Assembly (NCBI GenBank): GCA_022710975.1
Contig: JAKLGA010000002.1
Coordinates: 310,001-374,000, forward strand
Origin: Myxococcota bacterium
Lineage (GTDB): Bacteria; Myxococcota; B64-G9
Reading direction: 5' to 3'
Length of the DNA: 64,000 bases
Shown here: piece by piece, positions 37,706 through 46,013 of the stretch
Position numbering within the stretch: position 1 is the stretch's first letter
Layout of the letters: the number at the start of each line of letters is the position of its first letter
Program-made: the position numbers and the translations under genes
Notes under the pieces: model-generated
Database searches by the model: none
What the model was told of the DNA's origin: nothing
Seen by the model: only the letters and a program-made list of their open reading frames with translations

Positions 37706-38719
37706 ATGCACCCCTCCCTCTCCCCCTGCCCAGCCCTGCGCTCCCTCGGCCCGCTGGCGGTCGGCCTGCTGGCGCTCGGGCTGCCCACCGGCTGCGACAC
37801 CGGCGCACAGCTCTCCACCATCTGCCGCGGGGACGAGGACTGCCCGCCCGGCTACCGCTGCGAGCTGTCCACGGGCCTGTGCCTGTGCGCCAGCGACGAG
37901 GTGTGCGGCCCGGACGAGTACTGCGCCCCGGACGGCCGCTGCCGCCGGCGCATGGCCTGCGACACGAACCTGGATTGCCCGCTGGGCACCTTCTGCGACT
38001 CGACCACCGGCAACTGCATCGAGCAGGACAAGTGCACCGACGACAAGCAGTGCCCGCTGGGGCAGATCTGCTCCGAGGTCACCTTCCGCTGCGCCCCGGG
38101 CTGCCGCCAGAACGGCGACTGCCCGCTGGGCGACGTGTGCCGCGAGGGCGCCTGCCGCGGCGGGCTGTGCGAGGACACGTCCTACTGTGCCTACGGCGAG
38201 CTGTGCGAGCCCGCCAGCCAGACCTGCTCCAGCCCCTACGACGACGAACTCGCCCCCTTCTGCGCCCCGTGCCGCCCGACCAGCGTGAGCGAGCCGAACC
38301 GCTGCGGCCCGGGCCCGAACTTCTGCATCATGACCGGCAACGATCCCTCGCTGGCGCCCTTCTGCGGGGTGGACTGCAGCCAGGGCCAGGAGTGCCCCAA
38401 CGGCTACGGCTGCCACCTGATCCTGACCGCGCCCGACGGGAGCTGCCAGGCGGACGGGGAGTGCCCCTCGGGGAGCTGCCACATCAACGAGGGCGACACG
38501 GTCGGCTTCTGCCTGTGCGCCACCGACGCCGAGTGCCCGCAGGACGCCTGCGACGACTTCGCCTTCGAGTGCCGCCTGACCCGCCGGCCCTGCAGCCCGG
38601 GCGGCGCCGAGTGCGATCGGCCCATCTACTGCATCGAGGGGCTGTGCCTGCTCGGCAGGAACTGCGCCCCGGTGGAGGGGCTGCGCTGCGCGGACCTCAC
38701 CGGCGGGGTGGCGCCGTGA
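37706..38719 (+). CDS. Cys-rich lipoprotein, copy A of a tandem pair
   Basis: The 337-aa protein has a lipobox (LGLPTGCDTG). It holds a chain of Cys-rich units such as CRGDEDCPPGYRCELSTGLC, CGPDEYCAPDGRC, DCPLGTFCDSTTGNC and DCPLGDVCREGAC. The second half is less regular (GPGPNFCIMTG, CSQGQECPNGYGC, DDFAFECRLTRRPCSPGG). It overlaps the next gene by GTGA. The first half is almost identical, at DNA level, to copy B; the second half is only related. No enzymatic domain is seen; a surface role is inferred. Confidence 0.87.
   Translation: MHPSLSPCPALRSLGPLAVGLLALGLPTGCDTGAQLSTICRGDEDCPPGYRCELSTGLCLCASDEVCGPDEYCAPDGRCRRRMACDTNLDCPLGTFCDSTTGNCIEQDKCTDDKQCPLGQICSEVTFRCAPGCRQNGDCPLGDVCREGACRGGLCEDTSYCAYGELCEPASQTCSSPYDDELAPFCAPCRPTSVSEPNRCGPGPNFCIMTGNDPSLAPFCGVDCSQGQECPNGYGCHLILTAPDGSCQADGECPSGSCHINEGDTVGFCLCATDAECPQDACDDFAFECRLTRRPCSPGGAECDRPIYCIEGLCLLGRNCAPVEGLRCADLTGGVAP
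37808..38208 (+). repeat. 401-bp direct repeat, copy A
   Basis: This block differs from 38791-39191 at only three bases over 401 bp (offset 983). Flanking sequence on both sides diverges sharply, so the block behaves as a unit of recent duplication or gene conversion. Confidence 0.95.
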
Positions 38720-39693
38720 GCCGGGCGGTCGTCACCTGCGGGCTGGTCCTGCTGGCCCTCCCGCTGCTGCCGGGCTGCGAGCAGAGCACGCAGCTCTCCA
38801 CCATCTGCCGCGGGGACGAGGACTGTCCGCCCGGCTACCGCTGCGAGCTGTCCACGGGCCTGTGCCTGTGCGCCAGCGACGAGGTGTGCGGCCCGGACGA
38901 GTACTGCGCCCCGGACGGCCGCTGCCGCCGGCGCATGGCCTGCGACACGAACCTGGATTGCCCGCTGGGCACCTTCTGCGACTCGACCACCGGCAACTGC
39001 ATCGAGCAGGACAAGTGCACCGACGACAAGCAGTGCCCGCTGGGGCAGATCTGCTCCGAGGTCACCTTCCGCTGCGCCCCGGGCTGCCGCCAGAACGGCG
39101 ACTGCCCGCTGGGCGACGTGTGCCGCGAGGGCGCCTGCCGCGGCGGGCTGTGCGAGGACAAGTCCTACTGCGCCTACGGCGAGCTGTGCGATCTCGACAG
39201 CGACAGCTGCTACGACCCGTACGATCCGGACCTCAGCCCGTTCTGCGACACGTGCCGTTCGGCCACCATCTACGAGCCGAGCCAGTGCGGCCCCGGGCCC
39301 AACTTCTGCCTGGTGCGCGCGGGCGACCTGACCCTGCCGCCCTACTGCGGCGTGGACTGCAGCCAGGGCCAGGAGTGCCCCAACGGCTACGACTGCTTCT
39401 CGGTGCGCATCGTGTACACCAGCGACAACTGCCGCAGCGACGCGGAGTGCGACTCGGGCAGCTGCTACATCAAGGAGGGCGACGAGCTCGGATTCTGCCT
39501 GTGCACCTCCATGGCGCAGTGCCCTCAGGACTCATGCGACGACTTCACCTTCGAGTGCCGCGTGACCCGCCGGCCCTGCACCCCGGGCGGAAACGAGTGC
39601 GACCGGCCCATCTACTGCATCGACGGCTACTGCCACATCGGCTACAACTGCAAGCCCGTCGAAGGGCTGCGCTGCGAAGACGTGCTACAATGA
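38716..39693 (+). CDS. Cys-rich lipoprotein, copy B of a tandem pair
   Basis: GTG start overlaps the previous stop. The 325-aa protein has a lipobox (LLPGCEQST). Its N-terminal half is nearly identical to copy A; the C-terminal half differs (DKSYCAYGELCDLDSDSC, GPGPNFCLVRAGD, CFSVRIVYTSDNC), though motifs such as CGVDCSQGQECPNGY and CDDFTFECRVTRRPCTPGG remain. The pattern suggests shared partner binding by the first half and separate specificity in the second. It overlaps the HEAT-repeat gene by ATGA. Confidence 0.87.
   Translation: MSRAVVTCGLVLLALPLLPGCEQSTQLSTICRGDEDCPPGYRCELSTGLCLCASDEVCGPDEYCAPDGRCRRRMACDTNLDCPLGTFCDSTTGNCIEQDKCTDDKQCPLGQICSEVTFRCAPGCRQNGDCPLGDVCREGACRGGLCEDKSYCAYGELCDLDSDSCYDPYDPDLSPFCDTCRSATIYEPSQCGPGPNFCLVRAGDLTLPPYCGVDCSQGQECPNGYDCFSVRIVYTSDNCRSDAECDSGSCYIKEGDELGFCLCTSMAQCPQDSCDDFTFECRVTRRPCTPGGNECDRPIYCIDGYCHIGYNCKPVEGLRCEDVLQ
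38791..39191 (+). repeat. 401-bp direct repeat, copy B
   Basis: Partner of the block at 37808-38208; three mismatches in 401 bp. Confidence 0.95.
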
Positions 39694-41249: not shown

Positions 41250-42311
41250 ATGCCCAGCGCCGAGGACAAGCAGCAACCCAAGAAGGACACCACGGCCAAG
41301 GCGGAGCCCGCGCCGGCCTCGGAGCCCGCGGCCAAGCTCCCGGCCAAGCCCGAGCCGAAGGCCGAGGCCCCCCCTGGAAAGCCAGGGCCTGCCAAGCCGG
41401 AACCCCCGGCCAAGCCGCCCCCCAAGGAGCGCCCGCTGACCGAGCCGCAGGCCTTCCTGAAGGAGGCCCTGGCCGCGGCCCGGCACCTGGAGGTCGACCG
41501 GCTGCTGATGATCTGCGACGAGGCCGGGCCGCTCGAGCTGCTCATCGGCCGCGGGGTGAAGAAGAAGGCCGTGCTGGCCACCAGCTCGGAGAAGCAACAC
41601 CTGCGCTGCGAGGAGCTCGGCCTGGCCCACGTGGCCATCCCGCCCTTCGCCTTCGACCGGCTGGACAAGATCAAGGTCGCCTTGAGCGCCAGCCAGTCCG
41701 CCGGCAGCGTGGCGGATGGCGACTTGGTGTTGTGCCTGGTCGGCCGTCCGGGCTCACCCGAGACCGACACCAGCATGCTGACCCGGGTCGGGCAGCACTC
41801 GGAGGAGCAGTCGGCCCTGGGCGCGCTCATCGCCGGGGGCGAGGTCTCCCCGCAGGTGCTGGACGCCGTGCTGCAGATGGCGCTCAGCGTGGGTTTCGAC
41901 GGCATCGAGGGCACCCCGGTGGGCACCATCCTGGTGGTCGGCGACTCGACCGCCATCATGGAGAAGTCCAAGCAGCTCACCCTGAACCCGTTCCAGGGCT
42001 ACTCCGAGGATGATCGCAACATCCTGGATCCGAAGATCCGCGACGCGGTCCGGAACTTCTGCCTGCTCGACGGGGCCATCGTGGTGCGCGAGGACGGCGT
42101 GCTGCTGGCCGCGGGCCGCTACCTGCGCCCCCCGGAGACGCTGGACATCGACCTGCCCATGGGCCAGGGCACCCGGCACGCCGCGGCCAAGGCTATCACC
42201 CAGGTGACCCACGCGGTCGCCTTCGTGGTCTCGAAGACCACCGGCGCGGTCAGCATCTACCGCGCGGGTGGGCTGGTGGTGGAGATCAAGCAGCCGAGGA
42301 GAAGGACCTAA
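41250..42311 (+). CDS. Diadenylate cyclase-like protein (DacZ/CdaZ type)
   Basis: Diadenylate cyclases make the second messenger cyclic di-AMP from two ATP. The DAC domain fills about residues 190-350. Motif 1 is LLDGAIVVREDGVLLAAGRY (Asp274-Gly275-Ala276); motif 2 is GTRHAAAKAI (307-316), where the RHR of DisA/CdaA reads Arg-His-Ala. The ending AFVVSKTTGAVSIYRAGG is typical. Residues about 70-185 (RGVKKKAVLATSSEK, GDLVLCLVGRPG) resemble the pyruvate-kinase C-terminal-like domain of archaeal DacZ. The first 65 residues are a Lys/Ala/Pro-rich tail. Whether the Arg-to-Ala change leaves it active is unknown. It is the last gene of the lipoprotein operon. Confidence 0.78.
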   Translation: MPSAEDKQQPKKDTTAKAEPAPASEPAAKLPAKPEPKAEAPPGKPGPAKPEPPAKPPPKERPLTEPQAFLKEALAAARHLEVDRLLMICDEAGPLELLIGRGVKKKAVLATSSEKQHLRCEELGLAHVAIPPFAFDRLDKIKVALSASQSAGSVADGDLVLCLVGRPGSPETDTSMLTRVGQHSEEQSALGALIAGGEVSPQVLDAVLQMALSVGFDGIEGTPVGTILVVGDSTAIMEKSKQLTLNPFQGYSEDDRNILDPKIRDAVRNFCLLDGAIVVREDGVLLAAGRYLRPPETLDIDLPMGQGTRHAAAKAITQVTHAVAFVVSKTTGAVSIYRAGGLVVEIKQPRRRT

Positions 42312-42329
42312 GGTCTCCTCCGGAGACCT
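42311..42329. terminator. Hairpin shared by two convergent genes
   Basis: AGGTCTCC (42311-42318), loop TCC, GGAGACCT (42322-42329): a perfect 8-bp stem spanning both stop codons. There is no clear U-tract, so efficiency is uncertain. Confidence 0.55.
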
Positions 42330-42648
42330 AGCAGGAGCATTCTCCGCAGCTCTTGTCACCGCCCCTGGACAGCGGGATCTTGGGATCGACGCGGTAACCG
42401 CGGAAGAAGCCCTTCTCCACGAAGTCCACGCACACACCGCCCGTCTGCTGGAGCAGGGCCTTCTCGATCACCACCTTCAGGCCATCGAACTCGAACTTCT
42501 CGTCGGTCTCTTTTGGCTCATCCAGAGCCAATGCCAGGGTGGGCCCCGCTCACCCATGGGACAGGTAGATGCGGAAGGCCCCCTCGACCTTCTCGCGCTG
42601 CCCGAATTCCTTGAGCTTTGCCTGGGCGGACTGGGTCACCTCGACCAT
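42328..42648 (-). CDS. HesB/IscA-like selenoprotein with in-frame UGA (Sec33)
   Basis: ATG at 42648 follows AAAGGAG. The frame reads FRIYLSHG, then TGA (42552-42550), then AGPTLALALDEP without a frameshift, ending in SCGECSC and TAG. Read through, the 106-aa product is a complete A-type iron-sulfur scaffold/carrier (HesB/IscA) in which the first conserved Cys (normally GCxG after the second strand) is Sec33; Cys101, Cys104 and Cys106 supply the C-terminal ligands. HesB-like proteins are a reported prokaryotic selenoprotein family. A 7-bp hairpin starts 18 nt after the UGA, as needed for a bacterial SECIS. Ordinary calling would split this into two small ORFs. Selenocysteine genes (selA, selB, selC) are not in the window. 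Confidence 0.88.
42513..42531 (-). promoter_or_regulatory. Bacterial SECIS hairpin
   Basis: In the minus-strand mRNA, UUGGCUC, loop UGGAU and GAGCCAA form a perfect 7-bp stem with a G-containing loop. It begins 18 nt and its loop 25 nt downstream of the UGA, within the range for SelB-binding elements. Confidence 0.75.
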
Positions 42649-42800
42649 CTCCCACGCTCCTTTCCGCACCGAACCGGAGGTGCCGACCACGGCCCCGGCG
42701 TGCGAATAAAGGATAGTTCGGGTTTTGTATTCCGTCAACGGCCAATCGCCGGAGAAATGGCCGCCGCCGGCGGGCGACCAAGCCGCGGGAGGAGCACGAC

Positions 42801-44976: not shown

Positions 44977-45612
44977 TCACGGGGACCTCGGCGCTTCCCG
45001 GCCGGCCTCGACCTTCTTCTTCAGCGCCTCCACGTCCGTCTCGCGGATGAAACGGAGGAGGTTGGTCCACACCTCGTGGTAGCCGAACTCGCCCTCGGTC
45101 ATTTCCCGCAGGGCCTCGTCCTTGGTCCAGCCCTGCACCACCAGGCGGTAGAAGGCCGCCATGGTCCCGGTGCGATCCGCGCCGTGTTGGCAGTGGACGA
45201 AGACGGGCTGCCGGGCCGGATCGGTGGCCACGCGCAGGAACTGCAGCACGTGCTTCTCCTTGACCCCCCAGGCCGCCATGGGGATGTGCACGTAGTCCAG
45301 CTTGGTGCCCTTGAGCAGCTTCCGATCGGAGTGGAGCTGGCGCAGGCTGATCACCGTCTTGATGCCCAGGCCCTCCAGGTTGCGGAAGCCCTCCGCGCTG
45401 GGCTGCGCGCCGCGGTAGAGCTGGTCGGACACCTTGTGCAGGTTGGGCGCCCCGGCGAGCTGGACGGGCTGCGCCCACTCCGGCGGGCGGGCGGGCGGCT
45501 TGTCCGCGGCCTCGTCCCCCGCCAGGGCCGGGAGCCCGAACGCGAGCACCCAGGCCAGGGACCACACGCCAACCCCCGTGGACGACCACCCCTTCGCACG
45601 ACTCCCGAGCAT
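44977..45612 (-). CDS. Exported tyrosine/dual-specificity phosphatase-like protein
   Basis: GAGGAGG lies 7 nt before the ATG at 45612. The 211-aa protein has an N-terminal signal segment (LAWVLAFGLPALAGDE) and a cysteine-phosphatase domain (about 50-195). The P-loop is VHCQHGADRTGT, i.e. the CX5R motif with Cys141 and Arg147; YRGAQPSAEGFRNL and GIKTVISLRQ are typical of SIW14-like/DSP phosphatases. The product should act in the periplasm or outside, on phosphoproteins or phosphoinositide-like compounds. The general-acid Asp is not certain. It is unusual to see an exported member. Confidence 0.87.
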   Translation of the reverse strand: MLGSRAKGWSSTGVGVWSLAWVLAFGLPALAGDEAADKPPARPPEWAQPVQLAGAPNLHKVSDQLYRGAQPSAEGFRNLEGLGIKTVISLRQLHSDRKLLKGTKLDYVHIPMAAWGVKEKHVLQFLRVATDPARQPVFVHCQHGADRTGTMAAFYRLVVQGWTKDEALREMTEGEFGYHEVWTNLLRFIRETDVEALKKKVEAGREAPRSP

Positions 45613-45650
45613 GTTCGCCTCCTCGCGCACCCGGATCGCCCCGGGGCGGT

Positions 45651-46013
45651 TCAGGTCAGCCAGCGGACCACCAGCGCCACGCCCAGGACCAGGCCGAAGA
45701 ACGCCAGCACGCCGAGCTCCTTGAGCAGCACGACGGCCAGGATGAAGCGCCAGCCCAGGCTGGGGAACAGCCAGCGGGCGTAGGAGCAGGCCAGCAGGAA
45801 CAGCATGACCATGGCGGCGCCGGCCACCGGCGCCACCCGGGTGCCCTCCTGCCCGAAGGCCAGCAGGAACGCCAGGGCGCCCAGGGCCACCACGTGCATG
45901 ACGATGAGCGCGTCGAGCCCCCTCCTGGCCCATGGGCCCGGGAGCGGGCGGACGGGTCCCGTGGACCGGGCGGTGGGCGCTTCAGGACGGCCGGGGACAT
46001 CCTCGGTCTGCAT
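45651..46013 (-). CDS. Small membrane protein, 120 aa
   Basis: The likely start is ATG 46013, although no clear Shine-Dalgarno precedes it. A hydrophilic N-terminus (about 1-35) precedes three or four hydrophobic spans (ALIVMHVVALGALAFLLAFG; MVMLFLLACSYARWLFPSLG; a long C-terminal pair). I do not recognise a family. It is followed closely by the phosphatase gene on the same strand (38-nt gap), so they are probably co-transcribed. Confidence 0.65.
   Translation of the reverse strand: MQTEDVPGRPEAPTARSTGPVRPLPGPWARRGLDALIVMHVVALGALAFLLAFGQEGTRVAPVAGAAMVMLFLLACSYARWLFPSLGWRFILAVVLLKELGVLAFFGLVLGVALVVRWLT

Follow-up and report, generated by a model that had tools for sequence, protein, structure and literature searches.

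HesB-Like Selenoproteins and the Position of a Myxococcota Member

HesB-like selenoproteins were recognized in the surveys of 2005 and 2006, with members in genera including Geobacter, Desulfovibrio, Syntrophus, and Syntrophobacter (PMC1088965, PMC1242214, PMC1794560), and a 2026 review catalogs the family with its UxGP motif without settling its role (PMC13188914). Mutagenesis and 75Se labeling revealed a member in Methanococcus maripaludis; the function of this protein was described as unclear, and nitrogen fixation was not impaired when its gene was disrupted (PMC11097638). We found no HesB-like selenoprotein in the literature with a demonstrated biochemical role, and no description of Myxococcota members in open-access publications. 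The gene examined here lies in a 64,000-nucleotide stretch of a Myxococcota genome (the window), and it is almost certainly an ordinary, well-conserved member of this selenoprotein family described some twenty years ago, real and not new in kind. With it, a Myxococcota lineage joins this family, for which the best documentation comes from methanogens, clostridia, and the sulfate reducers with their relatives.

The window protein shares with the HesB-like selenoproteins of bacteria and methanogens (the TIGR01911 group and M. maripaludis MMJJ_08070) a common UxGP site, a relationship to the A-type carriers, and Sec in place of the HesB-domain Cys (PMC1794560, PMC13188914, PMC11097638). It differs from the TIGR01911 (HesB_rel_seleno) group in scoring below the cut-off of that model (37.9 vs. 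66.35 bits), and is therefore placed in the neighboring subfamily NF038090 (IscA_HesB_Se). To this model the read-through protein, scored with Cys substituted for Sec, aligns over positions 1-98 of 101 with 104.6 bits against a cut-off of 85. The site of the TGA, the UxGP motif, and a score over the cut-off are all shared with NF038090, from which we see no essential difference; all 29 aligned relatives match the same model. The general Pfam family Fe-S_biosyn (PF01521) is also matched (31.3 bits, cut-off 26.3), while scores for the IscA, SufA, and ErpA equivalogs fall far below each cut-off. In contrast to the archaeal type, the SECIS element of the window gene lies inside the coding region, as it does in bacteria. 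The earlier note, made from the DNA letters alone, had said that the family was known among prokaryotic selenoproteins, and it is indeed a cataloged UxGP family with an NCBIfam model of its own.

The Reading Frame and Its In-Frame TGA

The coding sequence occupies 42331..42648 on the minus strand, from an ATG at 42648 to a TAG stop at 42330-42328, and encodes 106 amino acids with Sec as residue 33. Read through the single internal TGA (42550..42552, minus strand, codon 33), the product is MVEVTQSAQAKLKEFGQREKVEGAFRIYLSHG-U-AGPTLALALDEPKETDEK...SCGECSC, with UAGP at the Sec site. This is not a chance open frame, and homology continues through the TGA to the C-terminus. An alignment with IscA (1r94) places the Sec at the first Cys conserved in IscA/HesB, as had been claimed beforehand; this residue is Cys35 in E. 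coli IscA. The positions previously given for the frame, the TGA, and the hairpin downstream of it were exact. The ATG follows a ribosome-binding site of GGAG type, in line with the good site reported earlier, and a sigma-70-like match (TTGACG-17-TATCCT, 42710..42738, minus strand) about 60 nt upstream of the gene is a candidate promoter (one found vs. a mean of 0.1 in shuffled sequences). Gene callers on the standard code would cut the gene short at the UGA, and the locus offers a clean case of this.

We read the locus as a functional NF038090-family (HesB/IscA-like) selenoprotein gene whose TGA encodes Sec, and from the sequence evidence we put the probability of this at roughly 0.95. Since TGA is normally a stop, the locus could instead be a pseudogene, an IscA/HesB gene lost to a genuine nonsense mutation, a reading that relatives speak strongly against. 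Among nine genera of the same family, seven (its own and six others) have an NF038090 gene that scores over the cut-off, and in every case the frame is open apart from exactly one TGA; of the remaining two genomes, one has no such gene and the other has no more than a fragment, at the end of a contig. Close relatives had been proposed as the place to look for disrupted frames, and in those compared the frame is broken nowhere except by a single TGA, at the identical codon. Measured against the nearest relative used (L053), changes after the TGA are commonest at the third positions of codons (12/8/21 over 60 codons), and the downstream part is therefore under coding selection. With the full Sec machinery also present in the genome, a pseudogene has next to no probability, and we rejected it on the conservation of the TGA together with the coding constraint.

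The same TGA extends well beyond the family. Lower-scoring Sec forms occur in three further Myxococcota genomes (G163, G192, and G193), and selB was found in 10/10 of the examined Myxococcota genomes with a Sec form vs. 137/195 in the phylum. A scan of public named genomes with the family alignment returned 80 loci, mostly labeled Desulfobacterales, Desulfobulbaceae, Desulfovibrio, or Deltaproteobacteria, four of them from genomes already in the family search. One locus is truncated ahead of the site; the 79 that are readable (77 by script and two UGPP variants by eye) all have TGA at the Sec site, despite the Cys at that site in the query. A search of a plasmid collection gave two distant matches only. 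The suggestion that the gene is of a myxobacterial type also fits, contigs of same-family genomes being labeled Myxococcales or Deltaproteobacteria.

The SECIS Hairpin

Downstream of the TGA lies a bacterial SECIS hairpin, UUGGCUC-UGGAU-GAGCCAA (42531-42513, minus strand), identified by folding, the published model, synonymous conservation, and atypical codons. Its stem is 7 bp, its apical loop (UGGAU) is 5 nt with G as the second nucleotide, and it starts 18 nt after the TGA, giving a UGA-to-loop distance of 25 nt. The stem is 6 bp if the 19-mer is folded alone and 7 bp otherwise. These features agree with all of the published bacterial criteria (a loop 3-9 nt long, 4-16 bp in the upper stem, G among the first two loop nucleotides, a UGA-loop distance of 16-37 nt, and an energy of -7.5 kcal/mol or lower). 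The isolated hairpin reaches -10.2 kcal/mol (z = -4.0), with 0/200 shuffles as good. The folding energy of a 53-nt piece around it is not significant as a whole (z = -1.0) and was for this reason not used; the isolated hairpin and its synonymous conservation carry the argument. The 7-bp hairpin 18 nt downstream that the earlier note had described thus stands, follows the SECIS rules, and is conserved at its synonymous sites.

This conservation is seen across 85 distinct sequences, in which the hairpin codons are nearly fixed at synonymous sites: GCT for Ala in 83/84, CTG for Leu in 85/85, GAT for Asp in 77/85, and GAG for Glu in 82/85. In the same sequences the flanking conserved Gly, Pro, Ser, Leu, and Thr have codon entropies of 1.7-2.2 bits, and the next conserved Asp beyond the hairpin is split between 48 GAT and 37 GAC. 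The LALDEP peptide formed part of the search pattern, and its amino-acid conservation is consequently in part ascertained; the pattern was back-translated degenerately, however, which leaves the synonymous sites of LALDEP free of ascertainment. Four of the codons involved, GCT, GAT, CCA, and AAA, are minority codons in this GC-rich genome (5%, 16%, 3%, and 2% in five window genes). One relative (L025) carries a compensatory pair in the stem, GGUUC...GAACC, and covariation is otherwise thin because the stem is almost invariant. The exact SECIS core matches at this locus alone in the genome, and an Rfam scan of the window returned no match.

Sec Decoding Genes in the Source Genome

The earlier note had proposed a search for selA, selB, tRNA-Sec, and selD, and all are present in the genome (7.13 Mb, 29 contigs, 98.6% complete), each over its cut-off: selA with 513 bits, selB with 291 bits (315 including a C-terminal piece), selD with 380 bits, and tRNA-Sec with 77 bits and the anticodon TCA. 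The selD gene (L019 1482-2418, contig C7) has an in-frame TGA of its own, which is followed by a very stable hairpin with a 3-nt loop, GGA (z -4.1). GGA thus occurs in the loops of both selD and the HesB-like gene, as expected if a single SelB reads both, these being two cases only. With this machinery present, SelB and Sec-tRNA would recognize the UGGAU-loop hairpin that follows closely on UGA-33, and would insert Sec. The genome also holds two elongation-factor genes about 15 kb apart with the same score to the selB model (157 bits, below the cut-off), presumably EF-Tu duplicates (L002 and L003; G000 contig C6, 55836-56960 and 40887-42011).

An open frame alone is silent on which residue is inserted, and the TGA might accordingly be read by ordinary suppression or under a changed code, for example as Trp. 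Against this, the alignment pairs the residue with a conserved Cys, family members have TGA throughout, the SECIS-type hairpin is synonymously constrained, and selA, selB, tRNA-Sec, and selD are all encoded. Moreover, TGA is the ordinary stop of the same HesB-like gene in three relatives (L023, L025, and L026). We therefore rejected a TGA=Trp or recoded genome on account of this use of TGA as a terminator and of the Sec system, and regard non-Sec decoding in general as highly improbable; the reading of TGA as Sec is retained below.

Possible Role of the Protein

The AlphaFold model of the window protein has a pLDDT of 85, falling below 50 in the tail (residues 96-106). Its best Foldseek matches in the PDB are 1r94 (E 1.6e-6), 2d2a, 1s98, and 1x0g, each with E 1e-5 or lower, and the eight best are all A-type carriers (IscA, SufA, IscA with [2Fe-2S], HI1723, and AQ_1857). 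The predicted structure accordingly has the A-type carrier fold, and the protein resembles canonical IscA, SufA, and ErpA in fold and sequence (1r94, 2d2a). It differs from them in having Sec in place of Cys35 and a CxxCxC tail in place of CGCG. The canonical three-Cys set with C-terminal CGCG is thus absent, replaced by Sec33 and a Cys-rich C-terminal tail (C101, C104, and C106; 42331..42348, minus strand) that is predicted to be disordered.

The product would then be an A-type carrier fold in which Sec replaces the first Cys ligand of the cluster and the Cys-rich tail is flexible, and its likeliest role would be to bind or hand on an Fe-S cluster, or iron or sulfur, with the selenolate acting as ligand or redox centre alongside the organism's NifU/IscU-type scaffold. 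We favor a role as Fe-S carrier, with some reservation. The protein could also be a Sec-based oxidoreductase or a metal- or metalloid-binding protein that reuses the A-type fold, and to this we give a smaller though substantial chance. The 2026 review deems most uncharacterized selenoproteins probably redox proteins and leaves the HesB-like family uncharacterized (PMC13188914), the CxxCxC tail departs from the canonical CGCG, and the M. maripaludis mutant lacks a nitrogen-fixation defect (PMC11097638). However, the nearest fold and the nearest sequences are those of A-type carriers, and at the Sec site, UAGP, neither a CxxU nor a UxxC redox motif is present.

The Fe-S context of the genome bears on the carrier role. 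Profile searches of the draft source genome found no canonical A-type carrier. A PF01521 search of the genome returned nothing, in itself a weak test as it missed the Sec gene too; a TIGR00049 search is the better test, as it detected the Sec gene, and it detected that gene only. As no canonical A-type carrier was found, the Sec-HesB protein may, if the absences hold, be the sole A-type protein in this genome. One relative (G004) has a canonical Cys-type gene besides its Sec form. In the nine draft genomes of the family, the source genome among them, profile searches did not find SufB, and NifU/IscU-type scaffolds occur in 9/9. A bolder and, in our view, unlikely proposal is that this Myxococcota lineage has no A-type protein other than Sec-HesB, which would carry Fe-S clusters with a selenolate ligand, supplied by a NifU/IscU-type scaffold in the absence of SUF, and so make Fe-S delivery selenium-dependent. 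Whether selenium can serve in Fe-S cluster delivery could sensibly be asked in a genome where Sec-HesB seems to stand alone among A-type proteins.

Genomic Neighborhood

The selenoprotein locus has no operon partner pointing to a function. Both flanking genes are on the opposite strand from the selenoprotein gene, a DAC-domain gene being convergent and an O-methyltransferase divergent, and a glyoxalase-superfamily gene is the neighbor in two other genera; the neighbors thus give no function. The convergent gene (41250-42311, plus strand) encodes a DisA-type diadenylate cyclase domain (PF02457, 69 bits) with a weak match to the DacZ_P sensor domain. Its orthologue in the near relative L053 is 57% identical and occupies the same place, likewise convergent. 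Further away, the window contains a dual-specificity/tyrosine phosphatase domain protein (44977-45933, minus strand; PTP-NADK, DSPc) and two tandem paralogues encoding Cys-rich, lipoprotein-like proteins (37706-39693, plus strand). The paralogues have about 86% DNA identity over some 950 bases, and stretches of the protein encoded by their 5' parts are identical, a similarity that is that of a recent duplication or gene conversion.
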